Virus record (IMG/VR): IMGVR_UViG_3300010354_000405
Span: 1-29,621 of that record
Strand: one strand, 5' to 3'
DNA from: a virus
DNA: 29,621 bases
How positions within the stretch are numbered: position 1 is the first letter of the stretch; every line of letters begins with the position of its first letter. A program made the position numbers and the translations under genes. The notes under the pieces were generated by a model. It was not told the DNA's origin, did not search any database, and was given only the letters and a program-made list of their open reading frames with translations. Below, in pieces: positions 2,916 through 24,563 of the stretch.

Positions 2916-3662
2916 GTGCCTATACGTCGCCCAATATCAGCGTTTAAAAAGACTCTCACAAACCTAGCACAAACGTCACATTATCAAGTGATAATGGATG
3001 CACCTTATCCTGTGAGAAGATATTTATTGGATAGAGGGATTGATCCGTTCTTTATTACTGAAAACGTTGGTTTATTGTGTTCTTCTGCATCTCTGCCAGG
3101 AAGTTCATATGCAACATCAGATATTGTCGGAAACTTCACGGGTGTTGTTGAGAGAATGGCTCACACTCGTCAGTTTACTCAAATTGATTTAGAATTTTAT
3201 GTCGATAAAGATTATAAGATAGTCAAGTTTTTAGAACACTGGATGGAATTTATATCTAGTGGATCTCAGGTAAATCCTGGAAGAGATGGATACTTCTTTA
3301 GAATGAGATATCCAAAAGATTATAAGACTGACCGCACAAGAATTATAAAATTTGATAGAGATTATGCCGCAGAAATAGAATATACTTTCTTTGGTTTATT
3401 TCCTCTTTCAATTAATAATATAAGCGTTTCATATGACTCTTCTAATATTTTGAAGGCATCCGCAACATTTAACTTTGATCGTTATGTTTGCGGTCCAGTT
3501 ACCAGTCTTGATTTTGTTAGGGGAATTAATTTTAACAATATTATCAAAAATCCATCTACACCACCAGTAATTTACAGAACAGGTCAATCTCTTGGAAATG
3601 AGAGTGGTGTTAGAGGAGTTACTTACAAACCAGGAAATGTTAATCCTACTATAGTAAGATAA
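2916..3662 (+). CDS. Tail-tube-fold protein of the gp19/gp54 type
   Basis: This 248-residue protein starts at GTG. AAAGG at 2903-2907 lies 8 bp upstream, and the next in-frame ATG is only at codon 27, so GTG is preferred. The segment around residues 65-110 (MAHTRQFTQIDLEFYVDKD, then KIVKFLEHWMEFI) is the signature of the phage T4 gp19-like tube fold. It is followed by beta-rich sequence ending in ASATFNFDRYVCG. T4 gp19, gp48 and gp54 share this fold. Next to a gp48-containing operon and directly upstream of the chaperone and tape-measure genes, it is most likely the gp54-equivalent tube initiator, but a minor tube protein is possible. The last 45 residues are Asn/Gly/Pro-rich and probably extended. 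Confidence 0.8.
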   Translation: MPIRRPISAFKKTLTNLAQTSHYQVIMDAPYPVRRYLLDRGIDPFFITENVGLLCSSASLPGSSYATSDIVGNFTGVVERMAHTRQFTQIDLEFYVDKDYKIVKFLEHWMEFISSGSQVNPGRDGYFFRMRYPKDYKTDRTRIIKFDRDYAAEIEYTFFGLFPLSINNISVSYDSSNILKASATFNFDRYVCGPVTSLDFVRGINFNNIIKNPSTPPVIYRTGQSLGNESGVRGVTYKPGNVNPTIVR

Positions 3663-3688: not shown

Positions 3689-4408
3689 ATGCCTTTACCA
3701 AAAATTGCTACACCAACATATGAGTTGGAAATACCATCAACTGGAAAAAAAATTAATTACAGACCTTTTTTAGTCAAGGAAGAAAAAGTTCTTATTATTG
3801 CTATGGAGAGTGAAGATCCAAAGCAAATAGCTAATGCCGTTAAAACTTTAATATCTAACTGCATCTTAACAAAAGGGGTAAAAGTAGATAATCTTTCAAC
3901 ATTTGATATTGAATATTTGTTTTTGAATATTCGTGGAAAATCTGTTGGGGAAACAGTAGAAGTTATGATTACTTGCCCAGATGATGGGGAAACTAAAATT
4001 CCCATTGAAATAAATTTAGACGATATTAAAGTCGAAACAAGTGAAGAACATAGTAGAGATATTAAACTTGATGAAAATTTAACATTAAGAATGAAATATC
4101 CATCTTTGAATGAATTCATCAAAAACAACTTTACGAATATTAGTAATGTTACTGTTGATGAGACCTTTGATCTGATTTGCTCTTGTATGGAGCAAGTATA
4201 TTCCGAGGAAGAATCTTGGTCTGCTGCAGATTGTACTAAAAAAGAATTAACAGAATTTCTTGAGCAATTGTCTTCGGTTCAATTTAAACAGATTGAAAAG
4301 TTTTTTGAAACGATGCCGAAACTTTCGCATACTATTAAGTTTACTAATCCAAAAACTAAAGTTGAAAATGAGGTTATTCTGGAGGGATTATCCGATTTTT
4401 TCGCATAG
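3689..4408 (+). CDS. 26: Baseplate hub / tail assembly chaperone, T4 gp26 family
   Basis: The protein has 239 residues, against 208 in T4 gp26. The opening MPLPKIATPTYELEIPSTGK with YRPFLVKEEKVLIIAME, NAVKTLISNCI and FDIEYLFLNIRGKSVGE is the characteristic pattern of T4-type base-plate family gp26. Two further parts follow: a small beta region (TCPDDGETKIPIEINLDD) and a C-terminal helical part with an acidic stretch near residue 170. The ATG is preceded by TAGGA. In T4, gp26 acts in hub assembly. In long-tailed phages generally, the gene just before the tape measure encodes the G-type chaperone. The 3' end carries a strong-looking -1 frameshift signal (4381-4435) that would extend it into the 57-aa ORF. 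A 298-aa fusion is then expected in addition to the 239-aa form. Confidence 0.85.
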   Translation: MPLPKIATPTYELEIPSTGKKINYRPFLVKEEKVLIIAMESEDPKQIANAVKTLISNCILTKGVKVDNLSTFDIEYLFLNIRGKSVGETVEVMITCPDDGETKIPIEINLDDIKVETSEEHSRDIKLDENLTLRMKYPSLNEFIKNNFTNISNVTVDETFDLICSCMEQVYSEEESWSAADCTKKELTEFLEQLSSVQFKQIEKFFETMPKLSHTIKFTNPKTKVENEVILEGLSDFFA

Positions 4409-4435
4409 GAATGGCGCACGAAGATCTTGCGTCAT
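4381..4435 (+). promoter_or_regulatory. Predicted programmed -1 ribosomal frameshift signal
   Basis: Three elements occur in the classical order. GGAGGG at 4381-4386 is an internal Shine-Dalgarno-like element. The heptamer T TTT TTC at 4396-4402 is in the zero frame of gp26, 9 nt downstream. After an 8-nt spacer, a stem-loop at 4411-4435 pairs ATGGCGCA (4411-4418) with TGCGTCAT (4428-4435), 8 bp with one G-U and a 9-nt loop. The gp26 stop TAG lies at 4406-4408. A -1 slip continues into CGC ATA GGA and then exactly into the frame of the 57-aa ORF. The arrangement resembles dnaX and the G/GT tail-chaperone genes of other phages. Frameshifting itself is inferred. Confidence 0.7.
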
Positions 4436-4584
4436 ATTATAAAGTAAACTTTGCCTTGATTCAACACCATAAATATAGTTTGACGGAGTTGGAAAATATG
4501 ATTCCCTGGGAAAGAGAAGTTTATCTTACTTTCCTTCAACAGTATATTGAAGAAGAAAACTTAAAAAACAAGGTAAATGGTTGA
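4411..4584 (+). CDS. Small downstream ORF, probable frameshift extension of gp26
   Basis: This 57-residue ORF runs from an ATG 2 bp after the gp26 stop to a TGA that overlaps the next gene by 8 bp. The sequence is compact and conserved-looking: DLASYYKVNFALIQHH, then YSLTELENMIPWEREVYL and an acidic helix. The pattern YY..NF.L.QHH..S..ELE.MIPWERE is like the T part of G/GT-type tail chaperones, judged from general appearance. Independent initiation looks poor: AGGA directly abuts the ATG and the ATG is buried in an 8-bp stem. It is therefore most likely made as a C-terminal extension through the -1 frameshift at 4396-4402, giving a 298-aa protein. T4 gp51 (about 249 aa) is another hub-assembly factor, but length does not support equating them. 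Confidence 0.75.
   Translation: MAHEDLASYYKVNFALIQHHKYSLTELENMIPWEREVYLTFLQQYIEEENLKNKVNG
4468..4475 (+). promoter_or_regulatory. Candidate late promoter upstream of the tape-measure-like genes
   Basis: CATAAATA matches the NATAAATA octamer. It lies inside the 57-aa ORF, about 100 bp upstream of the ATG at 4577. The same octamer also occurs inside other coding regions of this window (for example 7733-7740 and 11397-11404), so the match alone is weak evidence. Confidence 0.25.
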
Positions 4585-6223
4585 GATCTCATCACCACTA
4601 TCCAGAGAAAATAGAATTCAGATATCCAGATCTAGTACAATTTCTGGGTTGTTGGATGATAGAGCTTCCATTTTATCCCAGAATCCATTAAATGCTCAGA
4701 GAAATACTGGTCCAGATCCAGAGACATTAAAGTTTCTGGAATCAAATCAATCTTCTTTGAATGTTATATCATCTGGATTAGTTACACTTGGACAAAGAAT
4801 AGATGTTTTGTCCAGTTCATTGAATTCTTTATCATCTAGTATTGTCAATAACAATTTTCTTGAAAGTTATAGAGAACAACAAAAGTTACAGCAGGATAGG
4901 GCATTAGAGCAGCAAGCACTTAGAGACGAGTCAGAAGCTTTAATAGAAAGAAAGATTAGTGCTGCTGTAACTGCACCTGTTCAGGATGTTGCAGAGAAAA
5001 CAACATCAACATTATCTTCGTTGATGGGAACACTAACCAAATTTTTTGTTGGTTGGTTAGCATATAAAGGAATATTCCAAATAAAAGATCTAATTGATGG
5101 TTCTTTTGAAAATCTAAAACAGATTCAGACATCTGCAGAAAATAGTTTTAAATTTGTTTATAATATATTCGATACAATAAAAGGTGGAATAGAAAATGTT
5201 ATAAGTACGGTTATTGGTTTTACTAACTCAATAACTGAGTTTGTGGGGAATAATCCACTTGTAAATTTTGTTAAAAATTTAATTTCTGGGGACAGTGGTG
5301 ATAAAAATACACCCAACAATTCACCATCTCCAAATAACTCTCCAAGTATTAGTACTCCAGAGTCTTCACAATCTTCCCCTAATTTATTGGGATCCATTAC
5401 TGAAAATCCAGCAGTTAAGACAGTAACAGAAACCACATCATCTGCCTTAGAAGGTATGGGTAAAATGATGTCTGGATTTATGGTACCTAAAAATGAGAAG
5501 GAAGGTAATTTACCTACTACAAATCCTGGATCATTTTTGCCTGGTTTATTTGGATTGGCGTCAAAGAGTGTCACAGATCTATATGGATCTATGACTGGTC
5601 AACAATCTAAAAATCAATCGCAGACCACACAAAATCAACCACAACCTATTCCACAAATAGAACCTAAGGAAAAGAAAGTAAATACTCCTCAACCACCAGA
5701 ATCTAAAGATAACGTTAAAACTCCAGAAAAATCACCAGAGTTACAGACTCCTTTTGTTATTCAATCACCATCTATGGAACAAAATATTGAACAAGATACT
5801 GAATCAGTCAGTACTTCTGTTAATTTTGGTGATCAACTTACTAGTATCAACTCTAAAATTTTTCCAACATATAGTGAATCTAAAAATTATGCAGTAGATT
5901 TATCCTCAGTTTTGGATATTAAAAATCCACTAAAAACTGAGGATGATTCTCTGATGCCTTACACATCAGAAGTTGAGGCAGAAAGAGCAATTACTTCTCC
6001 TACTCCAAGTCCAGTTATTGAAGGCATACAAAAACCATCTTCTAATGTAGGTCCAGTCGAAAAACCAAAACCAAATATAACTGTTGCACCAATTCCCCAA
6101 CAAGCACCACCACCTCCACAACAAATGAGTTCTGCTAGTAATGATGTACCTGCAATTCCATCATCTAACCCTGATAATTTTTATGCCTTATATTCACAAA
6201 TACACTATAATGTCGTAATATAA
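4577..6223 (+). CDS. Tape-measure-like structural protein, first paralogue
   Basis: This 548-residue protein starts at ATG 4577 after AAGG, overlapping the small ORF by 8 bp. It has three parts. Residues 1-130 are helical with heptad-like LxxL/SS patterns (SLNVISSGLVTLGQRIDVLS) and a Gln/Glu-rich coiled-coil stretch. Residues about 145-215 are more hydrophobic, with FFVGWLAYKGIFQIKDLIDG and a run of amphipathic helix. From about 235 to the end it is low-complexity Pro/Ser/Gln/Asn. It sits exactly where the tape measure gene normally follows the chaperone frameshift pair, and T4 gp29 is of similar size (590 aa). I infer a tape-measure or tape-associated role. The F..GWL.Y core recurs in the next protein. 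It could instead be a scaffold or minor tail protein. Confidence 0.7.
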   Translation: MVEISSPLSRENRIQISRSSTISGLLDDRASILSQNPLNAQRNTGPDPETLKFLESNQSSLNVISSGLVTLGQRIDVLSSSLNSLSSSIVNNNFLESYREQQKLQQDRALEQQALRDESEALIERKISAAVTAPVQDVAEKTTSTLSSLMGTLTKFFVGWLAYKGIFQIKDLIDGSFENLKQIQTSAENSFKFVYNIFDTIKGGIENVISTVIGFTNSITEFVGNNPLVNFVKNLISGDSGDKNTPNNSPSPNNSPSISTPESSQSSPNLLGSITENPAVKTVTETTSSALEGMGKMMSGFMVPKNEKEGNLPTTNPGSFLPGLFGLASKSVTDLYGSMTGQQSKNQSQTTQNQPQPIPQIEPKEKKVNTPQPPESKDNVKTPEKSPELQTPFVIQSPSMEQNIEQDTESVSTSVNFGDQLTSINSKIFPTYSESKNYAVDLSSVLDIKNPLKTEDDSLMPYTSEVEAERAITSPTPSPVIEGIQKPSSNVGPVEKPKPNITVAPIPQQAPPPPQQMSSASNDVPAIPSSNPDNFYALYSQIHYNVVI

Positions 6224-6224
6224 A

Positions 6225-8219
6225 ATGGCAGCAACTAACCTTCTTAAAAAATCTTTTATTAATATAAAAAATATCACTAAGGGAATGTTTTCCTTAACTG
6301 AAGGATTAAACAAAAGTCAAAGTTATACTGCAAAAATTAATAAAGATATTTTAAAAGGAAATGAAAGAAAGAAAAATTACATAAGAGAAAATTCTATTTC
6401 TTTTAAAAGAAAAGTAGAGTCTTCAAGAAGGAGAAAAGGTAGGGATATTATAGAATTAACCAAAGTCGGTGCAGTTTTTAGAGCACCCGCTAAAGCAATT
6501 GCAAATACTACTAAAGGATTTTTTGGAAGAATACTAGACTTTGCCGGCACAATTATGGCAGGTTGGTTGATTTACAATCTCCCAACAATTGATCAAATGG
6601 GAAAAGAACTTAGTGGAAGAGTTATAACTCTTACTGGAATATTACAAAATTTTATACCAAATAGTGTGAAATTATTTTCAGCATTTGGTGGTGTAATAAG
6701 TGCATATTTAAAGAACTTTTTATCTCTTGATTTTAAAGATAGTGAAAATAGAGTTGACACTGCAATGAAAAATTTGAATGATACTTTTTTCGAAATGAAA
6801 GGTTCTTTTGATGAAGTAATGACTTTATTGAAAACTCCACTTACTACGGGTCTTGGTGGCCGTCCAGATTCTCCTGCTTTTGGCACAGACTATTCAAAAC
6901 AACAAGGTGGTGGAGGAAAACTACAACCTATTCATAAACAAGCATTGGACATTATCTCTGGACCAGAAAGTGGAGGAAGTTATAATGCAATGAATCAAGG
7001 AACAATTAATGATAAAATTGTTGGATCAACTCTTAACTCCGAATCAAAAATAGGAAAAAATTTAACTGATATGAGTATTGGAGAAGTTTTACAACGACAA
7101 CAATGGTTGATGAATAAATCAAATCCGCAAGTCAGTAATTATGGTGTTTATGCCGCCGGAAGATATCAATTTATTCCAAATACTCTTCCAGGAGTTATGA
7201 AATCTGCTGGACTGACACCACAAGATAAATTTAGTCCAGAAAATCAAGATTTAATGGCAATTGCTTTACTTAAGGAAAGAGGAATACAACCTTGGACTGT
7301 TGGAGGATCTAAATATTCGGCAAAGGAAAGGGCAATTGTTGAGCAAGCAAGAACAACTCCTACTCAATCAACACCATCAAGGCCAACAGTAACTCCACAA
7401 ACTCCACTATCTACAAATTTTGCACAAGTTACTGGAACAAGTGGTACTGTCAAATATAATGGTAGAGAAGGAGCACCAGTATCTGTTCCATATAGTCCAT
7501 TTAAACCTGGATCTGGTGCAGTTATTACTTCGACTATGGGTTATAGAGGATCTAGTGGAACTTATCATAAAGGATATGATCTAGCAGCAGCTCCTGGAAC
7601 ACCACTATATGCATATTTTCCTGGGAAAGTAACACATATAGGTTTGGATGGAACTGCATCTAGTGCTGGATATGGAAATTGGGTTGTGTGGAAAGATGAT
7701 CTATATGGATCATATCACTTTTTTGGGCATATGATAAATAAACCTCCCGTGAGATTGGGACAAATTGTGAATCAAGGAACATTAATGGGAAATGTCGGAA
7801 GTACGGGAAGATCTACAGGTCCTCACTTACACTGGGAAATTTCATCTAGTCCACCACAGGCAAATGGACAATTTAGTTCTTATGAGGATCCTGGAGCTTG
7901 GTTGAGAAAACACCCATTAAAGAAAGTTGAAGGACAACCTCAGAGTCCTCAGATTTCTCCACCAAGTCAATCGCAACCTTCTCCTCCTACACCTTCTCCT
8001 GCACAAATTTCTCCAAGTCCTAGAAAACAAACAAGTGAAAGATTAGTTCAAGAAGAAACTTCAGAATCTTATGTTGTTCCTTTTGTTTACCCTCAACCAC
8101 AAATACAATCTTCTGGTGGAATGGTTAGTGGTAGCGGACAAGAAAATGTTTTCTATGATGATACTTCGTTAAATAGATTTATCACTAAAAAGTTACTTTT
8201 AGATTTAGCGTACACCTAA
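6225..8219 (+). CDS. Tape-measure-like tail protein with lysozyme-like and M23 peptidase domains
   Basis: This 664-residue protein starts 1 bp after the preceding stop. Its N-terminus is basic (KRKVESSRRRKGRDI), and a hydrophobic segment around residues 105-120 (GTIMAGWLIYNLP) resembles the GWL.Y core of the upstream paralogue. Residues about 235-380 look like a lysozyme/transglycosylase domain: GPESGGSYNAMN with candidate catalytic Glu248, then GVYAAGRYQFIPNTLPGV and FSPENQDLMAIALLKERG. Residues about 425-560 form an M23 metallopeptidase with HKGYD (His448, Asp452) and HLHW (His534, His536), the expected zinc site. The C-terminal 100 residues are Pro/Ser/Gln-rich. Such domains cut peptidoglycan during DNA ejection. 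Its stop overlaps the next ATG (TAATG). The downstream gp5 appears to lack a lysozyme domain. Confidence 0.85.
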   Translation: MAATNLLKKSFINIKNITKGMFSLTEGLNKSQSYTAKINKDILKGNERKKNYIRENSISFKRKVESSRRRKGRDIIELTKVGAVFRAPAKAIANTTKGFFGRILDFAGTIMAGWLIYNLPTIDQMGKELSGRVITLTGILQNFIPNSVKLFSAFGGVISAYLKNFLSLDFKDSENRVDTAMKNLNDTFFEMKGSFDEVMTLLKTPLTTGLGGRPDSPAFGTDYSKQQGGGGKLQPIHKQALDIISGPESGGSYNAMNQGTINDKIVGSTLNSESKIGKNLTDMSIGEVLQRQQWLMNKSNPQVSNYGVYAAGRYQFIPNTLPGVMKSAGLTPQDKFSPENQDLMAIALLKERGIQPWTVGGSKYSAKERAIVEQARTTPTQSTPSRPTVTPQTPLSTNFAQVTGTSGTVKYNGREGAPVSVPYSPFKPGSGAVITSTMGYRGSSGTYHKGYDLAAAPGTPLYAYFPGKVTHIGLDGTASSAGYGNWVVWKDDLYGSYHFFGHMINKPPVRLGQIVNQGTLMGNVGSTGRSTGPHLHWEISSSPPQANGQFSSYEDPGAWLRKHPLKKVEGQPQSPQISPPSQSQPSPPTPSPAQISPSPRKQTSERLVQEETSESYVVPFVYPQPQIQSSGGMVSGSGQENVFYDDTSLNRFITKKLLLDLAYT

Positions 8220-12215: not shown

Positions 12216-15200
12216 ATGGAAAATTCTAATTATCTTAGTTTACAACAACTCTTTAATGATCGTGCCACATTCTATGCTGGAATGATCATCTATGGTGATG
12301 TTGAAACCGATAAAGCGATAGATCAGATAGTAGATACTGCAGAAAATTGGGAGTTTGAAAATCCAGTTTTAAAATTAGGTTATGTTGGTATAGAGTCTGA
12401 TACTCAGGCATTTAAATTTGGTGATGGTGAAACTGCCTGGAATGATCTTCCTTATGCTGTAAATGGGCAAGGAACTCAAGGTGCTCAAGGTTTTCAAGGT
12501 TTACAAGGTCTCCAGGGACAAGGAGATCAAGGTGTTCAGGGAACGCAAGGTCCTTTAAGTAATTTTCAAGGAACTCAGGGAAATATAGGTAATTTCCAAG
12601 GTACTCAAGGTACTCAAGGACTCCAAGGAACTCAAGGAGATCAGGGAACACAGGGGACAATAAGTAATTTCCAAGGAACTCAAGGAACAATAGGAGATGT
12701 AGGTCCACCAGGTCCACAAGGATTACAAGGACAGCAAGGTACTCAAGGTAATCAGGGACAGCAAGGAACTCAAGGATCTCAAGGATTACAAGGAGATCAG
12801 GGTACTCAAGGACTTCAAGGTAATCAAGGTTCGCAGGGTATCCAAGGGACTCAGGGTGGGCAGGGTATTCAGGGTCTTCAAGGAGATCAGGGACTCCAAG
12901 GAACTCAAGGAATTCAGGGTGATCAAGGAACTCAGGGAGACCAAGGTATTCAAGGCCTTCAAGGGATTCAAGGAACTCAAGGTATTCAAGGTCTTCAGGG
13001 TACTCAAGGAGATCAAGGTATTCAAGGTCTCCAAGGTATTCAAGGAGATCAAGGAGTCCAAGGAGATCAAGGAACTCAAGGAGACCAAGGTATTCAAGGT
13101 GTCCAAGGAGATCAGGGAACTCAAGGTATTCAGGGAGTTCAGGGTACTCAAGGAGATCAAGGTATTCAAGGTCTCCAAGGTATTCAAGGTCTGCAAGGTA
13201 TTCAAGGCGATCAAGGTACCCAAGGTGATCAGGGAATTCAGGGTACTCAGGGAGATCAGGGAACTCAAGGTATTCAGGGAGTTCAGGGTACTCAAGGAGA
13301 TCAAGGTATTCAAGGTCTCCAAGGTATTCAAGGTACTCAAGGAGACCAAGGTACTCAGGGTGTTCAGGGATTACAAGGAACTCAAGGAGATCAAGGTATT
13401 CAAGGTCTCCAAGGTGTTCAAGGTACTCAAGGAGATCAAGGTACTCAAGGGGCTCAAGGATTACAGGGAGATCAGGGTACCCAAGGAGATCAAGGTACTC
13501 AAGGTATTCAAGGTCTTCAGGGTACTCAAGGAGATCAAGGTATTCAAGGTCTCCAAGGTATTCAAGGTACTCAAGGAGATCAAGGTACTCAGGGGGCTCA
13601 AGGATTACAAGGAGATCAAGGAACTCAAGGAGATCAAGGTACTCAAGGTATTCAAGGTCTTCAGGGTACTCAAGGAGATCAAGGTATTCAAGGTACTCAA
13701 GGTCTTCAGGGAGATCAGGGTACTCAAGGAGATCAAGGTACTCAAGGGGCTCAAGGATTACAAGGAGATCAAGGTACCCAAGGAGACCAAGGTACTCAGG
13801 GTGTTCAAGGTCTACAAGGAACTCAAGGAGATCAAGGTATTCAAGGTCTTCAAGGTATTCAAGGAGATCAAGGAGTCCAAGGAGATCAAGGTGTCCAAGG
13901 TCTTCAGGGAGATCAAGGAACTCAAGGAGACCAAGGAACACAAGGTGTTCAAGGTCTTCAGGGAGATCAGGGAGTTCAAGGAACTCAGGGTGTTCAAGGT
14001 CTTCAGGGAGATCAAGGTACTCAGGGAGATCAAGGTACTCAGGGTGCCCAAGGATTACAAGGAGATCAAGGTACCCAAGGAGACCAGGGAACTCAAGGTA
14101 TCCAAGGTCTTCAAGGAGATCAAGGAACACAAGGTGTTCAAGGTCTCCAAGGAGATCAAGGTATTCAAGGTCTCCAAGGAGATCAAGGTGTTCAAGGTCT
14201 TCAGGGAGATCAGGGGGTTCAAGGAGACCAAGGTACTCAAGGTATTCAAGGTCTTCAAGGAGATCAGGGAGTTCAAGGAAATCAAGGAACTCAAGGAGAT
14301 CAAGGAACACAAGGTGTTCAAGGTCTTCAGGGAGATCAGGGAGTTCAAGGAACCCAAGGAAATCAAGGTCTTCAAGGAGATCAGGGTACTCAAGGAGATC
14401 AAGGTACTCAGGGTGCTCAGGGATTGCAGGGAGATCAAGGTCTTCAGGGTATTCAAGGGGATCAAGGTGTTCAAGGTCTTCAGGGTACTCAAGGAGATCA
14501 AGGCATTCAAGGTCTCCAAGGTATTCAAGGAGATCAAGGAGTCCAAGGAGATCAAGGTGTCCAAGGTCTTCAGGGAGATCAAGGAACTCAAGGAGACCAA
14601 GGAACACAAGGTGTTCAAGGTCTACAAGGAACTCAAGGAGATCAAGGTATTCAAGGTCTTCAAGGTATTCAAGGAGATCAGGGTATTCAAGGTCTTCAGG
14701 GAGATCAGGGAGTTCAAGGTAATCAAGGTGTTCAAGGTGATCAGGGGACACAAGGTGTTCAGGGTCTTCAGGGAGATCAGGGAGTTCAAGGAACCCAAGG
14801 TAATCAAGGTCTCCAAGGAGATCAAGGAACTCAGGGTGTTCAAGGAACACAAGGCGATCAAGGAATCCAAGGAACACAAGGACTTCAAGGAGAACAAGGA
14901 ACCCAAGGTGCCCAAGGTCTTCAAGGAGATCAAGGAGTTCAAGGAAATCAAGGAACTCAAGGAGATCAAGGAACACAAGGTGTTCAAGGTCTTCAGGGAG
15001 ATCAAGGACTACAAGGTAATCAAGGTCTTCAAGGTGAACAAGGAGTTCAAGGATTACAAGGAGTTCAAGGAACTCAAGGTGATCAAGGTATTCAAGGTCT
15101 CCAAGGTATTCAAGGTGATCAAGGAGTTCAAGGTCTACAAGGTGATCAAGGATTACAGGGAATACAGGGTACTCAAGGAGATCAAGGAACGCAGGGTGTT

Positions 15201-18200
15201 CAGGGTTTACAAGGAACTCAAGGAGATCAAGGTATTCAGGGTCTTCAAGGTGATCAAGGAGTTCAAGGTGTTCAAGGACTTCAAGGAACTCAGGGAGATC
15301 AGGGAATACAGGGTACTCAAGGAGATCAAGGAACGCAGGGTGTTCAGGGTTTACAAGGAACTCAAGGAGATCAAGGTATTCAGGGTCTTCAAGGTGAACA
15401 AGGTACTCAAGGTCTTCAAGGTCTTCAGGGAGACCAAGGATTACAGGGTAATCAAGGTCTTCAGGGGGAGCAAGGTGCTCAAGGAGTACAGGGACTTCAA
15501 GGAGATCAGGGGTTACAGGGTAATCAAGGTGTTCAGGGAGATCAAGGAACTCAAGGAATTCAAGGTTTACAAGGAGATCAAGGAGTTCAAGGAACCCAAG
15601 GCAATCAAGGTCTTCAGGGTGATCAGGGAACTCAGGGTGCCCAAGGAACTCAAGGCGCTCAAGGTCTTCAGGGAACACAGGGACTTCAAGGAGAACAAGG
15701 AACCCAAGGTGCCCAAGGTCTTCAAGGAGATCAAGGAGTTCAAGGAACCCAAGGCAATCAAGGTCTTCAGGGTGATCAGGGAACTCAGGGTGCCCAAGGA
15801 ACTCAAGGCGCTCAAGGTCTCCAAGGTGATCAAGGTACTCAAGGTGATCAGGGAGTTCAAGGTGTCCAAGGAACGCAAGGTGATCAGGGAATCCAAGGAA
15901 CACAAGGTCTTCAAGGAGAACAAGGAACTCAAGGCGCACAAGGTCTACAAGGTGATCAGGGAGTTCAAGGAACACAAGGTGTTCAGGGGGTTCAAGGGGA
16001 TCAAGGAACTCAGGGTGCCCAAGGAACTCAAGGCGCTCAAGGTCTTCAGGGAACACAGGGACTTCAAGGCGAACAAGGAACCCAAGGTGCCCAAGGTCTT
16101 CAAGGAGATCAAGGATTACAGGGGATACAAGGTACCCAAGGTGATCAAGGGACTCAAGGCGCTCAGGGATTACAAGGAGATCAAGGAGTTCAGGGAACAC
16201 AAGGCAATCAAGGTCTTCAGGGTGATCAGGGAACTCAGGGTGCCCAAGGAACGCAGGGTAATCAAGGTCTTCAAGGAACACAAGGACTTCAAGGAGAACA
16301 AGGAACTCAAGGCGCACAAGGTCTACAAGGTGATCAGGGAGTTCAAGGAACCCAAGGTAATCAAGGTTTACAGGGTGATCAAGGAACACAAGGCGATCAA
16401 GGTATTCAAGGTCTCCAGGGTATACAAGGTGCTCAAGGTACTCAGGGTGCTCAAGGTACCCAAGGTGCTCAGGGTACTCAAGGCGATCAAGGAATACAGG
16501 GTACTCAAGGTCTTCAGGGGCAACAAGGAACTCAAGGTGCCCAAGGTCTCCAAGGGGATCAAGGAGTTCAGGGTACCCAAGGTAATCAAGGTTTACAGGG
16601 TGATCAAGGTACTCAAGGTGATCAAGGAGTTCAAGGAGTTCAGGGTGCTCAGGGAACTCAAGGACTTCAAGGAGAGCAGGGAACTCAAGGTGCTCAGGGA
16701 TTACAAGGAGATCAAGGAGTTCAGGGTACCCAGGGTACTCAAGGTGTACAAGGACTTCAAGGTGATCAAGGAGTTCAGGGAACTCAGGGATTACAAGGTA
16801 CACAGGGTGCTCAAGGAACACAGGGTGCTCAAGGAACACAGGGTAATCAAGGATTACAAGGAGATCAAGGAGTTCAAGGCACACAGGCAACTCAGGGATT
16901 ACAAGGTAATCAAGGTACTCAAGGAGATCAGGGAACCCAGGGTGTCCAAGGTCTTCAGGGAACTCAGGGTGATCAAGGAGTTCAGGGAACACAAGGTGTT
17001 CAAGGACTGCAAGGCAATCAAGGTATTCAAGGAACACAAGGAGTTCAAGGGTTACAGGGTGATCAAGGTACTCAAGGTGATCAAGGAACTCAGGGTATTC
17101 AAGGTTTACAAGGTACCCAAGGATTACAGGGATTACAAGGCACCCAAGGTAGACAGGGTTTACAGGGTAATCAAGGAGCTCAAGGAACTCAAGGTGCTCA
17201 AGGGTTACAAGGAGACCAAGGCACTCAAGGTGATCAGGGAACACAAGGAGTACAAGGTGCTCAAGGGACACAAGGTCTTCAAGGAGCTCAAGGCACTCAA
17301 GGTAATCAAGGATTACAAGGAGATCAAGGAGTTCAGGGTACCCAAGGTAATCAAGGTTTACAGGGTGATCAAGGTACTCAAGGTGATCAAGGAACCCAAG
17401 GTGCCCAAGGAGTTCAAGGAACACAAGGTCTTCAGGGTGTTCAGGGAAGACAAGGACTCCAAGGTAATCAAGGTGTTCAAGGTCTACAAGGTCTACAAGG
17501 TCTTCAGGGAAGACAAGGTACTCAAGGAAATCAAGGAGTACAAGGTCTACAGGGTGATCAGGGAACTCAGGGACTTCAGGGAGATCAGGGAACTCAAGGT
17601 CTGCAAGGTAATCAAGGTAATCAAGGGTTGCAGGGAGTTCAGGGAACTCAAGGAGTTCAAGGAAGACAAGGACTCCAAGGTCTGCAAGGTAATCAAGGAC
17701 TACAAGGAGATCAAGGTACCCAAGGAAATCAAGGACTTCAAGGTAATCAAGGTAATCAAGGTAATCAAGGAAATCAAGGACTTCAGGGTACTCAAGGAGT
17801 TCAGGGTAATCAGGGTCTTCAAGGATTACAAGGATTACAAGGAAATCAAGGTAATCAAGGTCTGCAAGGGAATCAGGGACTACAGGGAGATCAAGGAACT
17901 CAAGGTGTTCAGGGTAATCAAGGATTACAGGGAGATCAGGGAACCCAAGGAAATCAAGGAGTACAAGGAAATCAAGGAACCCAAGGTAATCAAGGATTAC
18001 AGGGAGATCAGGGAACCCAGGGCAATCAGGGATTACAAGGAAATCAAGGTACGCAAGGTATTCAAGGTCTTCAAGGAGATCAGGGAACTCAGGGTAATCA
18101 AGGTCTTCAAGGTAATCAGGGCGTTCAAGCTGTTCAGGGTACTCAGGGTAATCAGGGATTACAAGGAACTCAAGGTAATCAAGGAACTCAGGGAGTTCAA

Positions 18201-21200
18201 GGACTACAAGGAGATCAAGGAACTCAAGGAGCTCAAGGCACTCAAGGTAATCAAGGATTACAAGGAGATCAAGGAGTTCAGGGAACTCAAGGTGCTCAGG
18301 GATTACAAGGTAATCAAGGCACTCAAGGTGTTCAAGGAACTCAAGGAGTACAAGGATTACAAGGTACTCAAGGACTTCAAGGAGTTCAAGGAACTCAGGG
18401 GACCCAAGGGTTACAAGGAACTCAAGGAAATCAAGGAGTTCAAGGATCTCAAGGATTACAAGGTCTTCAGGGAAATCAAGGAACTCAAGGAAGACAAGGC
18501 ACCCAGGGTCAACAAGGTTCTCAAGGTCTTCAAGGTCTTCAGGGTAGACAAGGTACACAGGGTGTTCAAGGTACTCAAGGACTTCAAGGAGTACAGGGAA
18601 CTCAGGGTAGACAAGGAACTCAAGGACTGCAGGGTAATCAGGGATTACAAGGTGGACAAGGAACCCAAGGATTGCAGGGATTACAAGGACTTCAAGGATT
18701 ACAAGGAAATCAGGGTGCGCAAGGACTGCAAGGTGATCAAGGAACTCAAGGACTCCAGGGTAATCAAGGCCTTCAGGGAAATCAAGGACTTCAAGGAGTT
18801 CAGGGGACACAAGGACTGCAAGGAACTCAAGGTGTTCAGGGATTACAGGGAAATCAAGGAACTCAGGGCCTTCAAGGGTTACAAGGTGATCAAGGAACTC
18901 AGGGTATCCAAGGACTTCAGGGAGATCAGGGAGTTCAAGGAATTCAAGGTCTTCAAGGTTTACAGGGTAATCAAGGAACCCAGGGAATTCAGGGATTACA
19001 AGGCGATCAGGGACTTCAAGGTATTCAGGGTCTTCAGGGAGATCAAGGACTCCAAGGTGTTCAGGGGGTACAAGGAACACAAGGAACCCAAGGTACTCAA
19101 GGACTTCAAGGAAATCAAGGTACCCAAGGTATTCAAGGTCTCCAGGGAGTTCAAGGATTACAAGGAGATCAAGGAACTCAAGGACTTCAGGGCAATCAAG
19201 GGTTGCAGGGATTACAAGGATCTTCTAATTTTGATGTAGATACTGATAATACTACAAACGAAAACAGGTTTGTTCTTTTCTCAGAAGATCCTGATGCCAT
19301 AGCAGGAATTTCAACTCTATATGCAGCAACAGAAAAATTAACATTTGTTCCTGCAACAGGATCTTTAGGAGTTAATACTAACGTAACAACTGATAATTTA
19401 ACTGTAGATGGAACCACAAGATCTACCGAATTTTATGGCGGTGGTGTAAATCTTGTCGGTATTGTTACTCAATTAGTACCAGGTATCGGTATTGATTTAA
19501 CGGCAACTCAAACTCCAGGAAAAGGTGTTGTAACAATTGATGCTTATAGACCAATTGGAAAGACCATATACGTTGCTCAGAATGGAGATGATAATAATAC
19601 TGGTTTATCCGAAAACTATCCTAAGAGAACAATCAAGGCAGCAGCTTCTATAGCACTATATGGGGATACTATTAAACTATTCCCAGGCGTATATGTTGAA
19701 GAAAATCCAATTGTTTTGGCAAAAACAGTTTCTCTTGAGGGAACCGAACTTAGAAACTGTGTAATAACTCCAAAATATCCAGAAAAGGATATGTTCTATG
19801 TTAATAATGGATGCCACATAACCGATGCCAGCTTCATAGGACAGAATTCAAGAAATGGTGCTGCAATAGTAGCATTACAACCACTATTAGGAGTTTCTAC
19901 AGATAGATTCTTTGACGGCGCTAGAATGATTCGTTTGAATCTTGATTATATTGCAAAAGAATCTGTAGGATTCTTAACAAGTGGATTTAGTGGATTTGCA
20001 GGTGGACATAGAGAGCAAGATGCTGCTAAATTGATTGATTCCAATTTAGAATTTATTGCTGGAGAAACTGTTGGATTCTTGACTTCTCCATCTGGTTATA
20101 ACTTCAGTCTAGGAATTAGTAGTTACACTAATTGTAGAGAAGATATTGTAAGTATTATGAAGGCGGTTTCATATGACCTCAAGGCAGGTAGTAACCGCAA
20201 ATCTATCGGTGCTGGATATTCTTACTTCAGCAATTCTAATAGTTTGATTCATATTACAGGTGCTGGTGTATCTGAAGCGACTGTTGCTGCACTCGATTAC
20301 GCAGCAGGAATCTCAACATTTGTCATCAATAACTTAGATCTGCCAGTTTCTTATCAAGGAGTTGGAAATAGTGTAGTACAAGTTAAGAATCCATCAGTTA
20401 TTCAGGTTGCTGGTGGATGTGTAGGTGTTGGAACCACTATTAGTCAATTGATCGGAATCGTAACCAGTATGATAGGTGCTGGAACAACTCTGACTGCTCC
20501 TCCAGTTAGATATGGTGTTACTTTAGAGAGTAATGATTGTGCAGATGATATTAAAGATATATGGAAGTGTATTATTCATGATATTACTAGAGGTGGTAAT
20601 TCTAGATCTGTTGCGGCAGGAAAGGCATATTTTGATGATAACTGGAACTTAAAACCAGGAATTCTCAAGAATCCAGATGAAATAAAACAAACCATAGGAA
20701 CAATTGAATATTCGTTCAATGTTGCCAGAGCAGTAATTAATAACTGCTCTTGGGGCGGATATCCTGTTGGACTTGGTACAACAGTTGTTAATGCAGTTTA
20801 TGATGCAAATACAGGAGTTACGACAGTAACTGCGATTAATCACGGTCTTTCTGTATCGGATCCAGTTAAAATTCAAGGTCTAAAATATGAATGCACTCCA
20901 GGATCTGAAGGATTCCCTGTTGGAGTTGTAACTGCCACTTATGATAGATTGACTGGAATCTCAACCATAGAAGTTAACAAGGCACTAGCAATTAAGTCTG
21001 GGGATAGAATTCGTTTACGTGACCTAGTATTTGAATGTAATAGTGGTGGTGGTCCTTCCACAGCATCATATCCTTCAGGAAACCTTGGATATGATTTTAC
21101 AGTTCAAGATGTTCTTGATCCGAAGACATTTATTGTAAATGTAGGAAAATCAACGCTTGTTCACAACTATCAATATGGTGGAACTGCAGCAAGACTTTAT

Positions 21201-24200
21201 ACACCTGTGTTTGGAATTTCTACAGCATCTTACGATAGAACAACAGGAATAACCACAATTGTTGCAATTGGAATAGGAACTACTTCCCAATCAGACCTAT
21301 ACATTGAACCTGGTAAAAAAGTAAAAATTGAAAATCTTGTCTGGGAATGTAATAGTGGTGGAGGTCCTTCTACTGCATATTATCCATCAGGAAATCTTGG
21401 ATATGACTTTACTGTAATTGCAACAGCAGAGAATCGTTACCTGGATGCTGCAAACTTAATACAGAAGAATAGACTAGAAATTATTGATAAATCTCTTGCT
21501 GCAATTGCAATTGCACACTCTGACTTCTATTTCCCCAACGATGTTCAGACAACTAGATTCTCTAGATTTAAGGATTCTTATCGCCTGATTCAGCAAAATA
21601 GAACTGAAATTGTAAATAGTGCCTGGTCAGCAACTGCCACTTTGTATCCAGCAATTGCAGGAACTGAAACAAAGTGTAAGCGTGACCTAGGATATTTTGT
21701 TGATGCAATTTCAACTGACATATTTACTGGCGGAAATTCTTATTCTATTGCCTTTGTAAATCAATACTTCAGCAATGGTGCGCCAATTAATAACGGATTA
21801 GTTGGAGAAATAACAGAATCTGTTTATGCATTTAATCAGGCAAGAGATCTGATGAAGGCAGCAATTACTAATCAGTTGACCATTAAAGATCTAACTTTAA
21901 CTGGAGACCCAGTAACTGGTTCTAATGTAAGCACTGCATCCTGTGCAAACGTTCAAAATACATTAGATACACTAACATCAATTGTTAATACTGTTCTAAC
22001 TGCAGGATCACTAGATTCACTCAAAACAATTTGGAATAATCCTGGTATTTTTGTTTCGGGTGAGAACAAGTGCCGTAGAGATATTGGATATATTGTAGAC
22101 GCCTTAATCAAGGATGTTAGATACGGAACTAACAAGTACATTCGTGAGGCAACCAGAGCCTACTTCAACAAGAATGGAACACCAATTTCAAATGGATTGG
22201 TTGGAGAAACCGCACAAAGTGTAACTGCATTTAATGCTGTTCGTGATTATGCTAAGAAGGCAATTACAAATCAATTGAATGTAAAAGATCTTTCAATTAC
22301 TCCAGATCCTTTAACTGGAAATAATCAGAGTGAAACTTCTTGTGCCAACGTAAGAACAAATATTGACAACTTGATTTCTATTTTAACAACAACAATTACA
22401 AATGGAAATCTAAGTGCATATCCAGCACTATATACTTCAAATATGGTGAAGATAAATGTTGGTATTTCTACATTAGATCACACATATATTACCGGAGGAA
22501 CATTAACTTCCAATTATACAACTAATATCTTCCCAGACGGAACTTATAACTATATCTTCCCAGTTAAGTCTGAGGTTGGACCAAATACATTTGAATTCGT
22601 TGGTGGAAAGACTGTTCTACCACACACATATGTTTCTGGCGGAACAGTTCAAAAGTATCAGAATTTCCAAACTGAATATTCTCAGGTTAAGGATCTTTCT
22701 ATGCAAGTGGATCCTGAAACTGGATTTAATAATGTAATTAGTTCTTGTGCAGATGTTACCTCTGCACTCAAATCTTGTGTTGGTGTGGTGACCTCGATTG
22801 TTGGACTTGGTTCCACCGCATTCTCTACAATTGGATTTAATATATCATATCCAGGTAATCGTGGAAAAGGATTTGAATCACTTGTTGGTATTACAAGTGC
22901 AGTTTATACTGAGACTTCTGGTAGAACAACAATCAAGGCACCTGGACTACCAATTAAAGTTGGAGATTTAATAGAAGTTAGAGATCTATTGTTCTCCTGC
23001 TCTTCTGGTCTAACAACTAGTACACAGTTATTCCCATCAGGATATTATGGATATGAATTCTATGTCACTAAAATAAATCCCGATGATTCCTTTGACATCT
23101 ATACTGGAATTTCTACCATCCCACATAATTATGTTTCTGGTGGATATGTAATAAACAGATCTATACCTGTTACAGAGGCGAAATATGATAACAACACCGG
23201 AATCACTACCATTACTTCACCTGGTATAAGTTTAAGGATTGGTGATACCGTAACATTACGTGATCTTGAATTTGCTTGCAATAGTGGTGCTGGTACAACA
23301 ACATTATACCCATCTGGTAATAATGGATTTAGTTTCCAAGTTCTGAGTGTTTCTGAAGATGGTAATTCATTCACAGTGAACGTTGGTAAGACTGGAATCG
23401 GCCACACATATGTTGTTGGCGGTGTTGTAATTCCACCATATTCCAAGGGTGTTGGACCAATTACTCAAGGTCCTTATATTAGAAACTGCACCAACTTTAT
23501 CGGTGATAGTATCGGAATGAAAGTTGATGGTTTTGAAGCAGAACCTGGTGATAAGGATGATATTGGTGTAACTGGAACGATGAGCGTTGACTCATACACC
23601 CAATATAACCAAGGTGGTATTGGTGTTTCTATTACCAATGGCGCATATTCTCAGTTGGTTTCTATCTTTACAATTTGTGATGATATTGGAATCTTTACAA
23701 AGTCTGGTGGACAGTGTGATATTACAAACTCCAACGCATCATTCGGTAACTATGGACTAGTTTCTGATGGTGTTGGTGATAATACTTCAAAATCAATTTA
23801 TCGATATACTGCAAGTATATCCGAAAATGCGAAGGCGGAGGATGATACGATTGTGGTTTCTGGAGTTGGTAAGAATCGCCCATATGATGGTCAGGCAATT
23901 TACTTTGATCGTTTATATTATTTCGTAGATCGTATAGAAGTGACCAATGGTGGAAGTGGATATACAGAATCTAATCCACCAACGATTACTTTTGACTTCC
24001 CAGAAGGACCAAATGGAATCAGAGCAGAAGGTTCTGCAAACATTGTTGATGGAAAGGTAGTTTCTATTGACGTAATTAGTAGTGGTACTCAGTATGAAAA
24101 TCCACCAAATATATCAATCACTGGAGGCAATGGGGCAGGTGCTTCCGCATCGCCAGTAATGTATCCAATATATTATGGAATTGAAAAAGCAACATTACCT

Positions 24201-24563
24201 GTAAATGGAGTCTCCGAAATTACTTTAAATCAAACATTGAATAATGATATTGGTGTTGGAACGACTGTTTACTTCTCTAGAATTAGTTTACAAATTGCAA
24301 CTTCCATCTCTCTGGAATGGGTTGGTGCTGGAACAAATATTAATACTGCAAAACCAGCTTTAGGTGGTGTAACAATTCAGGAAAATGAAGTAGATAAGAG
24401 AAATGGAGGACAGGTTGTTTATACCAGCACTAATCAGGCAGGAAACTTCCAAATTGGTGAAGGTGTTGTAATCAATCAGTTGACAGGAACCATTTCCGAA
24501 AGATCCTTCAGTCAAAGTCTGTTAAATACAGTAACACCTCTAATTATAGCACTAGGTAAGTAA
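12216..24563 (+). CDS. Giant collagen-like (Gly-X-Gln) tail fibre, 4,115 aa
   Basis: The ATG lies 4 bp after the preceding stop, and the gene fills a third of the window. Residues 1-83 form a fibre-type N-terminus with VLKLGYVGIESDTQAFKFGD and GETAWNDLPYAVNG, a motif seen at the base of many phage fibres. Residues about 84-2335 are collagen-like G-X-Q triplets with almost no Pro. Residues 2336-4115 are non-repetitive at DNA level: a beta-helix start (GKTIYVAQNGDDNNTGLS, about residue 2448), then about 1,190 residues of repeated Cys-containing helical and beta modules, then resumed beta-helix (YIRNCTNFIGDSIGMKVDGF, about 3752). The conserved-looking end is GGQVVYTSTNQAGNFQIGE. Receptor or cell-surface contact at long range is inferred. 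The intact frame across 6.7 kb of repeats argues strongly for expression. Confidence 0.88.
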   Translation: MENSNYLSLQQLFNDRATFYAGMIIYGDVETDKAIDQIVDTAENWEFENPVLKLGYVGIESDTQAFKFGDGETAWNDLPYAVNGQGTQGAQGFQGLQGLQGQGDQGVQGTQGPLSNFQGTQGNIGNFQGTQGTQGLQGTQGDQGTQGTISNFQGTQGTIGDVGPPGPQGLQGQQGTQGNQGQQGTQGSQGLQGDQGTQGLQGNQGSQGIQGTQGGQGIQGLQGDQGLQGTQGIQGDQGTQGDQGIQGLQGIQGTQGIQGLQGTQGDQGIQGLQGIQGDQGVQGDQGTQGDQGIQGVQGDQGTQGIQGVQGTQGDQGIQGLQGIQGLQGIQGDQGTQGDQGIQGTQGDQGTQGIQGVQGTQGDQGIQGLQGIQGTQGDQGTQGVQGLQGTQGDQGIQGLQGVQGTQGDQGTQGAQGLQGDQGTQGDQGTQGIQGLQGTQGDQGIQGLQGIQGTQGDQGTQGAQGLQGDQGTQGDQGTQGIQGLQGTQGDQGIQGTQGLQGDQGTQGDQGTQGAQGLQGDQGTQGDQGTQGVQGLQGTQGDQGIQGLQGIQGDQGVQGDQGVQGLQGDQGTQGDQGTQGVQGLQGDQGVQGTQGVQGLQGDQGTQGDQGTQGAQGLQGDQGTQGDQGTQGIQGLQGDQGTQGVQGLQGDQGIQGLQGDQGVQGLQGDQGVQGDQGTQGIQGLQGDQGVQGNQGTQGDQGTQGVQGLQGDQGVQGTQGNQGLQGDQGTQGDQGTQGAQGLQGDQGLQGIQGDQGVQGLQGTQGDQGIQGLQGIQGDQGVQGDQGVQGLQGDQGTQGDQGTQGVQGLQGTQGDQGIQGLQGIQGDQGIQGLQGDQGVQGNQGVQGDQGTQGVQGLQGDQGVQGTQGNQGLQGDQGTQGVQGTQGDQGIQGTQGLQGEQGTQGAQGLQGDQGVQGNQGTQGDQGTQGVQGLQGDQGLQGNQGLQGEQGVQGLQGVQGTQGDQGIQGLQGIQGDQGVQGLQGDQGLQGIQGTQGDQGTQGVQGLQGTQGDQGIQGLQGDQGVQGVQGLQGTQGDQGIQGTQGDQGTQGVQGLQGTQGDQGIQGLQGEQGTQGLQGLQGDQGLQGNQGLQGEQGAQGVQGLQGDQGLQGNQGVQGDQGTQGIQGLQGDQGVQGTQGNQGLQGDQGTQGAQGTQGAQGLQGTQGLQGEQGTQGAQGLQGDQGVQGTQGNQGLQGDQGTQGAQGTQGAQGLQGDQGTQGDQGVQGVQGTQGDQGIQGTQGLQGEQGTQGAQGLQGDQGVQGTQGVQGVQGDQGTQGAQGTQGAQGLQGTQGLQGEQGTQGAQGLQGDQGLQGIQGTQGDQGTQGAQGLQGDQGVQGTQGNQGLQGDQGTQGAQGTQGNQGLQGTQGLQGEQGTQGAQGLQGDQGVQGTQGNQGLQGDQGTQGDQGIQGLQGIQGAQGTQGAQGTQGAQGTQGDQGIQGTQGLQGQQGTQGAQGLQGDQGVQGTQGNQGLQGDQGTQGDQGVQGVQGAQGTQGLQGEQGTQGAQGLQGDQGVQGTQGTQGVQGLQGDQGVQGTQGLQGTQGAQGTQGAQGTQGNQGLQGDQGVQGTQATQGLQGNQGTQGDQGTQGVQGLQGTQGDQGVQGTQGVQGLQGNQGIQGTQGVQGLQGDQGTQGDQGTQGIQGLQGTQGLQGLQGTQGRQGLQGNQGAQGTQGAQGLQGDQGTQGDQGTQGVQGAQGTQGLQGAQGTQGNQGLQGDQGVQGTQGNQGLQGDQGTQGDQGTQGAQGVQGTQGLQGVQGRQGLQGNQGVQGLQGLQGLQGRQGTQGNQGVQGLQGDQGTQGLQGDQGTQGLQGNQGNQGLQGVQGTQGVQGRQGLQGLQGNQGLQGDQGTQGNQGLQGNQGNQGNQGNQGLQGTQGVQGNQGLQGLQGLQGNQGNQGLQGNQGLQGDQGTQGVQGNQGLQGDQGTQGNQGVQGNQGTQGNQGLQGDQGTQGNQGLQGNQGTQGIQGLQGDQGTQGNQGLQGNQGVQAVQGTQGNQGLQGTQGNQGTQGVQGLQGDQGTQGAQGTQGNQGLQGDQGVQGTQGAQGLQGNQGTQGVQGTQGVQGLQGTQGLQGVQGTQGTQGLQGTQGNQGVQGSQGLQGLQGNQGTQGRQGTQGQQGSQGLQGLQGRQGTQGVQGTQGLQGVQGTQGRQGTQGLQGNQGLQGGQGTQGLQGLQGLQGLQGNQGAQGLQGDQGTQGLQGNQGLQGNQGLQGVQGTQGLQGTQGVQGLQGNQGTQGLQGLQGDQGTQGIQGLQGDQGVQGIQGLQGLQGNQGTQGIQGLQGDQGLQGIQGLQGDQGLQGVQGVQGTQGTQGTQGLQGNQGTQGIQGLQGVQGLQGDQGTQGLQGNQGLQGLQGSSNFDVDTDNTTNENRFVLFSEDPDAIAGISTLYAATEKLTFVPATGSLGVNTNVTTDNLTVDGTTRSTEFYGGGVNLVGIVTQLVPGIGIDLTATQTPGKGVVTIDAYRPIGKTIYVAQNGDDNNTGLSENYPKRTIKAAASIALYGDTIKLFPGVYVEENPIVLAKTVSLEGTELRNCVITPKYPEKDMFYVNNGCHITDASFIGQNSRNGAAIVALQPLLGVSTDRFFDGARMIRLNLDYIAKESVGFLTSGFSGFAGGHREQDAAKLIDSNLEFIAGETVGFLTSPSGYNFSLGISSYTNCREDIVSIMKAVSYDLKAGSNRKSIGAGYSYFSNSNSLIHITGAGVSEATVAALDYAAGISTFVINNLDLPVSYQGVGNSVVQVKNPSVIQVAGGCVGVGTTISQLIGIVTSMIGAGTTLTAPPVRYGVTLESNDCADDIKDIWKCIIHDITRGGNSRSVAAGKAYFDDNWNLKPGILKNPDEIKQTIGTIEYSFNVARAVINNCSWGGYPVGLGTTVVNAVYDANTGVTTVTAINHGLSVSDPVKIQGLKYECTPGSEGFPVGVVTATYDRLTGISTIEVNKALAIKSGDRIRLRDLVFECNSGGGPSTASYPSGNLGYDFTVQDVLDPKTFIVNVGKSTLVHNYQYGGTAARLYTPVFGISTASYDRTTGITTIVAIGIGTTSQSDLYIEPGKKVKIENLVWECNSGGGPSTAYYPSGNLGYDFTVIATAENRYLDAANLIQKNRLEIIDKSLAAIAIAHSDFYFPNDVQTTRFSRFKDSYRLIQQNRTEIVNSAWSATATLYPAIAGTETKCKRDLGYFVDAISTDIFTGGNSYSIAFVNQYFSNGAPINNGLVGEITESVYAFNQARDLMKAAITNQLTIKDLTLTGDPVTGSNVSTASCANVQNTLDTLTSIVNTVLTAGSLDSLKTIWNNPGIFVSGENKCRRDIGYIVDALIKDVRYGTNKYIREATRAYFNKNGTPISNGLVGETAQSVTAFNAVRDYAKKAITNQLNVKDLSITPDPLTGNNQSETSCANVRTNIDNLISILTTTITNGNLSAYPALYTSNMVKINVGISTLDHTYITGGTLTSNYTTNIFPDGTYNYIFPVKSEVGPNTFEFVGGKTVLPHTYVSGGTVQKYQNFQTEYSQVKDLSMQVDPETGFNNVISSCADVTSALKSCVGVVTSIVGLGSTAFSTIGFNISYPGNRGKGFESLVGITSAVYTETSGRTTIKAPGLPIKVGDLIEVRDLLFSCSSGLTTSTQLFPSGYYGYEFYVTKINPDDSFDIYTGISTIPHNYVSGGYVINRSIPVTEAKYDNNTGITTITSPGISLRIGDTVTLRDLEFACNSGAGTTTLYPSGNNGFSFQVLSVSEDGNSFTVNVGKTGIGHTYVVGGVVIPPYSKGVGPITQGPYIRNCTNFIGDSIGMKVDGFEAEPGDKDDIGVTGTMSVDSYTQYNQGGIGVSITNGAYSQLVSIFTICDDIGIFTKSGGQCDITNSNASFGNYGLVSDGVGDNTSKSIYRYTASISENAKAEDDTIVVSGVGKNRPYDGQAIYFDRLYYFVDRIEVTNGGSGYTESNPPTITFDFPEGPNGIRAEGSANIVDGKVVSIDVISSGTQYENPPNISITGGNGAGASASPVMYPIYYGIEKATLPVNGVSEITLNQTLNNDIGVGTTVYFSRISLQIATSISLEWVGAGTNINTAKPALGGVTIQENEVDKRNGGQVVYTSTNQAGNFQIGEGVVINQLTGTISERSFSQSLLNTVTPLIIALGK
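13377..13817 (+). repeat. Tandem 144-bp (16-triplet) super-repeats in the first array
   Basis: Successive units start at 13377, 13521 and 13665. The X residues read T-D-I-L-V-T-D-T-A-L-D-T-D-T-I-L in the first unit and differ at one position (V to I) in the second. The third unit has diverged and is one triplet longer. A 144-bp offset recurs at 15156-15253 and 15300-15397, which are 98-bp identical blocks. Confidence 0.85.
13851..14623 (+). repeat. 107-bp perfect direct repeat pair
   Basis: Bases 13851-13957 are identical to 14517-14623. The offset is 666 bp (74 triplets), a multiple of 9, so both copies are in the same codon and triplet register. Synonymous choices (CAA/CAG, GGA/GGT/GGC) are the same throughout, unlike most of the array, which points to a recent duplication or gene conversion. 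Confidence 0.9.
15573..16706 (+). repeat. Modular 17- and 8-triplet blocks in the first array
   Basis: Reading only the X residues, a 17-triplet unit D-V-T-N-L-D-T-A-T-A-L-T-L-E-T-A-L fills 15573-15725. Related 17-triplet units fill 15951-16103, 16176-16328 and 16554-16706. The intervals 15726-15950 and 16329-16553 are 25-triplet versions (17 + 8), and 16104-16175 is a lone 8-triplet block. Bases 15570-15667 and 15723-15820 are identical over 98 bp, at a 153-bp offset. Confidence 0.85.
19909..23440 (+). repeat. Diverged protein modules inserted in the beta-helix of the giant fibre
   Basis: Two module types recur in the C-terminal region. The helical type carries C-x-x-D-[IL]-x(n)-D-x-x-x-G-x-N...YF, seen at about 20130, 20537, 21675 (Cys3154) and 22071 (Cys3286). 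The last two are 132 residues apart and each has a second Cys in S-C-A-N-V. The beta type reads A-x-Y-D-x-x-T-G-[IV]-[ST]-T...C-N-S-G...PSG-x-x-G-[YF], seen at about 20790, 20930, 21215, 22890 and 23170. Copies at 21033 and 21345 share 23 of 24 residues over the ECNSGGGPST...LGYDFTV stretch. Confidence 0.8.

Follow-up and report, generated by a model that had tools for sequence, protein, structure and literature searches.

A conserved T TTT TTC site and a covarying stem-loop point to -1 frameshifting between gp26 and the gp51 C-terminal domain in T4-like cyanophages

The gp26 homologue of a T4-like cyanomyovirus very probably ends in a programmed -1 frameshift site, T TTT TTC, by which one gene would give rise to both a short tail assembly chaperone (TAC-N) and a long one (TAC-NC). 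This reading, drawn from sequence comparison, is supported by the conservation of the heptamer, of the -1 register and of a covarying stem among relatives. Within the single genome the signal is modest, barely above chance, and it is the comparison across relatives that is decisive.

The gp26 locus and its probable slip site

The window, by which we mean the whole stretch of 29,621 nucleotides analysed here, comprises a block of tail and baseplate genes from a T4-like cyanomyovirus; where the host of a relative is known, that relative usually belongs to the Kyanoviridae, as do S-SRM01, P-SSM2 and S-PM2. The minus strand carries gp53, gp48 and gp4; on the plus strand follow, in order, a tail tube-family gene, gp26, a 57-aa ORF, two large ORFs and gp5. 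Upstream of the chaperone stands a clear tail tube-family gene (2916..3662, plus strand; phrog_45, E 1.3e-37; PF23849, 60 bits). The gp26 homologue itself (3689..4408, plus strand; 239 aa), which represents the short form TAC-N, matches PF12322 at 254 bits and phrog_150 at E 3.7e-81 over profile positions 5-232. Downstream, a 548-aa ORF (4577..6223, plus strand) overlaps the end of the -1 frame extension and occupies the place expected of a tape measure gene. A weak match to the tape measure family phrog_991 (E 5.6e-05 over 141 residues) makes it a tentative candidate for that function.

Directly 3' of this ORF lies another of 664 aa (6225-8219), which has an M23 peptidase domain and resembles endolysins in its matches; at this place S-PM2 has a single ORF, of 1167 aa, directly after gp51. 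The 548-aa and 664-aa ORFs could possibly be the parts of a split tape measure/lysin protein. Further along the window, two giant proteins (12216-24563 and 26167-29621) consist of collagen-like Gly-X-Gln triplets, with an uninterrupted run of 464 such triplets in the first; the long ORFs on the opposite strand of these regions are mirror products of the repeat.

The gp26 frame closes with GAT TTT TTC GCA TAG, which places the slippery heptamer T TTT TTC (4396..4402, plus strand) in the gp26 register. A slip of one base back at TTT TTC leads to Phe-Phe-Arg-Ile-Gly-Met, with a predicted junction of D-F-F-R-I-G-M, and nothing interrupts the -1 frame between the heptamer and its stop codon (4582-4584). 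The extension (4396..4584, plus strand; 62 residues from the slip site and the stop) joins gp26 to the 57-aa ORF of the gene callers (4411..4584, plus strand), as the first-pass annotation had claimed, in a predicted TAC-NC product of 298 aa (3689..4584, plus strand). The flanking elements are likewise where that annotation had placed them. A Shine-Dalgarno-like GGAGGG (4381..4386, plus strand) stands 9 nt upstream of the heptamer, and a stem-loop (4411..4435, plus strand), the presumed frameshift stimulator, follows 8 nt downstream and holds the second ORF's only candidate ATG. The two strands of the window together contain TTTTTTC eight times, against 17 occurrences expected in such AT-rich DNA; since this count is below expectation, conservation alone was used as evidence against a chance heptamer.

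Under the proposed mechanism, most ribosomes would stop gp26 at 4408 and release the short chaperone, TAC-N. On T TTT TTC a minority would move back by one base, with help from the downstream stem-loop and from pairing between 16S rRNA and the upstream GGAGGG, and read on into the gp51 C-terminal domain, yielding the 298-aa TAC-NC. By analogy with lambda gpG/gpGT, reviewed in PMC5009743, the abundant short form would bind the tape measure protein and coat it; recruitment of tail tube subunits would fall to the rare long form.

Conservation of the probable slip site and the standing of the 57-aa ORF

Our sample comprised 260 gp26 junctions from IMG/VR and from named phages, 194 of them distinct. 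A lack of conservation in the heptamer or in the -1 register, which the first-pass annotation had named as grounds for abandoning the frameshift, was not what the comparison found: T TTT TTC stands in the gp26 register in 183 of the 194 distinct gp26 ends, with T TTT TTT or T TTT TTG in a further eight (pf16, Ochrobactrum OC, phiM9, SH-Ab 15599 and the loci L257, L260, L262 and L263). Since the T TTT TTC set was chosen by its motif, invariance within the set is uninformative by itself, and the informative figures are the 183/194 and the contrast in codon use with other Phe-Phe pairs. In the same genes, TTT TTC is used by 14 of the 184 Phe-Phe pairs outside the site, and the full in-register heptamer recurs there just once. 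The choice of TTT TTC is not explained by Phe-Phe.

The register is conserved as well. Across three cyanophage clades, 175 of 178 members (87/90, 20/20 and 68/68) have an Arg codon (CGN) directly behind Phe-Phe in the -1 frame, whereas the frame-0 residue that overlaps it varies between Gly, Ala, Val and others. Beyond this codon, an alignment of the -1 domain from T4 gp51 and 31 phage loci has a mean column identity of 65%.

These data bear directly on the possibility of an independent gp51 gene in the 57-aa ORF, with translation starting at the ATG at 4411 by initiation or termination-reinitiation and with the heptamer being the conserved Phe-Phe end of gp26. Such a gene would agree with an ATG situated 2 nt beyond the stop of gp26, with the separate-gene annotation in S-PM2 and P-SSM2, and with the Vibrio phages D510 and YC, in which stop and start overlap and the heptamer is missing. 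However, 91 of the 183 distinct relatives conserve the domain although their first ten -1 codons include no ATG, which argues that the ORF is most likely not a free-standing gene. The first-pass annotation had described the ATG as lying within the stem without a spaced Shine-Dalgarno, and this was borne out: none of the 80 ATG-bearing members of the window clade has a Shine-Dalgarno core 4-13 nt upstream, the T run occupying that stretch. Moreover, the conserved -1 Arg precedes the ATG, the covarying stem sequesters it, and the TTT TTC pair is invariant at the site in a way that Phe-Phe pairs elsewhere are not. We therefore consider an independent gene highly unlikely and, with half of the relatives lacking the ATG, reject it as the main route.

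A less exclusive proposal would have the window clade use both routes, frameshifting to make TAC-NC and some re-initiation at 4411 to make a free C-terminal domain. The ATG at the window position is indeed kept by 90 of the 183 relatives, at re-initiation distance from the stop. Nevertheless, no Shine-Dalgarno sequence lies at a usable distance, the AUG may be kept as the base of the stem, and other clades do without the ATG, which implies that a free C-terminal domain is not generally needed. We judge this dual use to be rather unlikely, and favor frameshifting as the route to the second domain.

Deposited records present the domain in more than one form. It is annotated as a separate gp51 gene in S-PM2, P-SSM2 and S-8S53, unannotated in S-CAM4 (L085) and DSL-LC03 (L269), and represented by a cut-short ORF in S-T4 (L270). 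All six genomes carry the in-register heptamer and a complete -1 domain, and no joined CDS annotation was found in the deposited records examined.

The remaining exceptions among the 194 distinct ends are the two Vibrio phages and a single contig, L069. In D510 (L092, 3660-3690) and YC (L095, 3700-3730), distant gp26 genes without the heptamer are followed by a gp51-like domain through a TAATG stop/start overlap, which is perhaps a third way to make the second protein. L069 (1501-2391) contains a natural in-frame gp26-gp51 fusion, a single ORF with TTTTTGG in place of TTTTTTCGG, and a search of its 236-kb contig for a second, T4-style gp26 copy found none. It represents either a phage with the long form only or an assembly error; a structure of the fusion predicted without an alignment (pLDDT 34) was uninformative.

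The stem-loop and the Shine-Dalgarno-like element

The arms of the window's stem, ATGGCGCA and TGCGTCAT (4411-4418/4428-4435), form eight pairs, one of them G-U, around a 9-nt loop. By itself the hairpin has a z of -2.4. The first-pass annotation had suggested aligning the heptamer, the Shine-Dalgarno-like element and the stem across related gp26 genes; such an alignment upholds the conservation of the heptamer and the covariation of the stem, but finds the Shine-Dalgarno-like element well kept in the window clade and weak or absent in that of S-CAM4. Over 79 distinct sequences, 91.8% of the cells in the stem are paired and four pairs have changed on both sides, with 29 double-change cells as against 8.1 in shuffles. 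The covariation score is 0.152, compared with 0.047 in shuffles and far lower values in slid controls; none of 500 shuffles scored as high, a count that is not a probability because the shuffle control leaves relatedness in. Covariation is clearest where GCG/CGC alternates with GCT/AGC, a silent Ala codon change in one arm being paired with an Ala-to-Glu change in the other.

Elsewhere in the family, this position is taken by unrelated hairpins. Those of the S-PM2 clade reach 17 pairs and that of MA01 has ten; the S-CAM4 clade has either CCCTCT/AGAGGG or a longer CTTCC type. The mean folding energy just 3' of the site is -11.3 kcal/mol, compared with -4.2 kcal/mol for windows elsewhere in gp26, and in 34 diverse representatives there is one clear minimum, for windows starting 2-5 nt after the heptamer. 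The spacing of 8 nt to the downstream structure lies within the 5-9 nt expected for a -1 frameshift. Neither an Rfam family match in 4200-4700 nor an intrinsic terminator was found.

Within the window clade, codon choice preserves the GGAGGG-like element. The Glu codon at this site is GAG in 71 of 90 members, as against 29% elsewhere, and the duplex with the anti-Shine-Dalgarno averages -7.9 kcal/mol, as against -1.3 kcal/mol in control windows. The 9-nt spacing to the heptamer is found in 81 of the 90, with GGAAGG included. In the S-CAM4 clade the element is weak or absent, and it is thus an accessory and no defining part of the signal. The term 'dnaX-like', which the first-pass annotation had applied, suits the layout of the window and its clade, namely a Shine-Dalgarno-like element, a tandem-slippage heptamer and a stem-loop as in E. 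coli dnaX, but does not extend to the family as a whole, in which the first of these parts is not general. The two systems differ further in their heptamers (A AAA AAG in dnaX, T TTT TTC here) and in their outcome, the shifted product here being longer than the frame-0 protein and not shorter.

The same elements are informative as to which enzyme would slip. A run of six T could in principle invite RNA polymerase, and not the ribosome, to slip during transcription. Yet what is kept in almost all members is six T plus C, in codon register and with tandem-slippage geometry, and a conserved downstream hairpin together with an upstream Shine-Dalgarno-like element suits ribosomes and not polymerase. 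Transcriptional slippage thus appears extremely unlikely, and slippage by the ribosome is the interpretation that we retain.

Kinship with T4 gp26 and gp51 and with known frameshift systems

The 57-aa ORF matches phrog_634 (baseplate hub assembly catalyst; E 1.3e-26) and the C-terminus of phrog_150, where positions 231-278 are contiguous with the 5-232 covered by gp26. Judged by these profile matches, the phrog_634 hit corresponds to T4 gp51 and the ORF is the C-terminal domain of gp51. The first-pass annotation had treated the ORF as anonymous; its fusion to gp26 stands, but the ORF is not nameless, being already annotated as gp51 in the two cyanophages S-PM2 and P-SSM2. T4 has two PF12322 domains, one being gp26 and the other the N-terminal 200 residues of gp51. 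T4 gp51 spans positions 13-280 of the phrog_150 profile, and T4 gp26 spans 14-235. A profile built on the predicted fusions gave a single unbroken alignment with T4 gp51 residues 15-246 that crosses the slip site (i-Evalue 2.1e-12), and the same profile aligned T4 gp26 over the short form only. Hence the two genes of T4 correspond here to one gene and a predicted frameshift, gp26 being homologous to the short form and gp51 to the complete fusion. T4 differs in that its two genes are separate and divergently oriented, so that no frameshift is needed. This comparison provides independent support for the link from T4 gp26 to the G/GT chaperone pair that the first-pass annotation had drawn. For T4, PMC3004832 counts gp26 and gp51 among the hub assembly chaperones, gp51 being required and absent from the virion.

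Among the PDB matches listed for the gp26 structure model (pLDDT 85.8), the HK97 tail assembly chaperone 2ob9 had the highest probability (0.54; TMt 0.40) at a non-significant E of 2.1, and the likeness to the HK97 chaperone fold is therefore suggestive only. A PDB sequence search with the gp26 profile gave no matches.

The frameshift of lambda gpG/gpGT and its relatives was reportedly treated by Xu, Hendrix and Duda in 2004. Lambda uses another slippery heptamer, sequence similarity is no part of the likeness drawn here, and in the present system the heptamer is accompanied by a covarying hairpin and, in one clade, by the Shine-Dalgarno-like element. Closer to our locus, the abstract of Vladimirov, Gautam and Davidson (Virology 2022;566:9-15) is said to describe frameshifting as apparently conserved in a number of T4-like groups, with T4 itself relying on genes 26 and 51.

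The first-pass annotation had known of no description for this family, a position that does not hold. To go by its abstract and by papers that cite it, the study of Vladimirov, Gautam and Davidson (Virology 2022) assigned the tail assembly chaperones of T4-like phages, with the same gp26/gp51 family and the same logic of short and long forms as here. In the passages that cite this study, PMC12846349 refers to polyT sequences as known -1 signals in the TAC-N genes of T4-like phages, and PMC10885494 to some T4-like phages that carry a short gene and a separate fused gene. The chaperones of Vandenendeviridae and Andersonviridae (PMC12846349) also employ a -1 shift on polyT where TAC-N ends, which adds a short extension ahead of the tape measure gene, but their motif is GTTTTT and the phage family is another. 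Since T4-like tail assembly chaperones with polyT sites are already published, the present locus is a well-supported example of a described arrangement.

The conserved stimulators, the covarying hairpin and the Shine-Dalgarno-like element, may be undescribed, and they are the only part with a claim to newness. It is tempting to speculate, if only tentatively, that cyanophage-type T4-like phages set their chaperone ratio by a three-part dnaX-like signal, in which the hairpin has repeatedly been replaced in place by unrelated ones and the Shine-Dalgarno-like part varies by clade; this would constitute a tuned stimulator system not yet described.

Taken together, our findings from a broad sample confirm the place of the T4 hub-assembly proteins gp26 and gp51 in the scheme of short and long tail chaperones. 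In marine T4-like phages, a single gene most likely yields both forms through slippage of the ribosome, and in deposited genomes gp51 has been given as a separate gene, truncated or missed. The hairpins found at this site offer a natural set of interchangeable elements for the study of how -1 frameshifting is tuned in bacteria.
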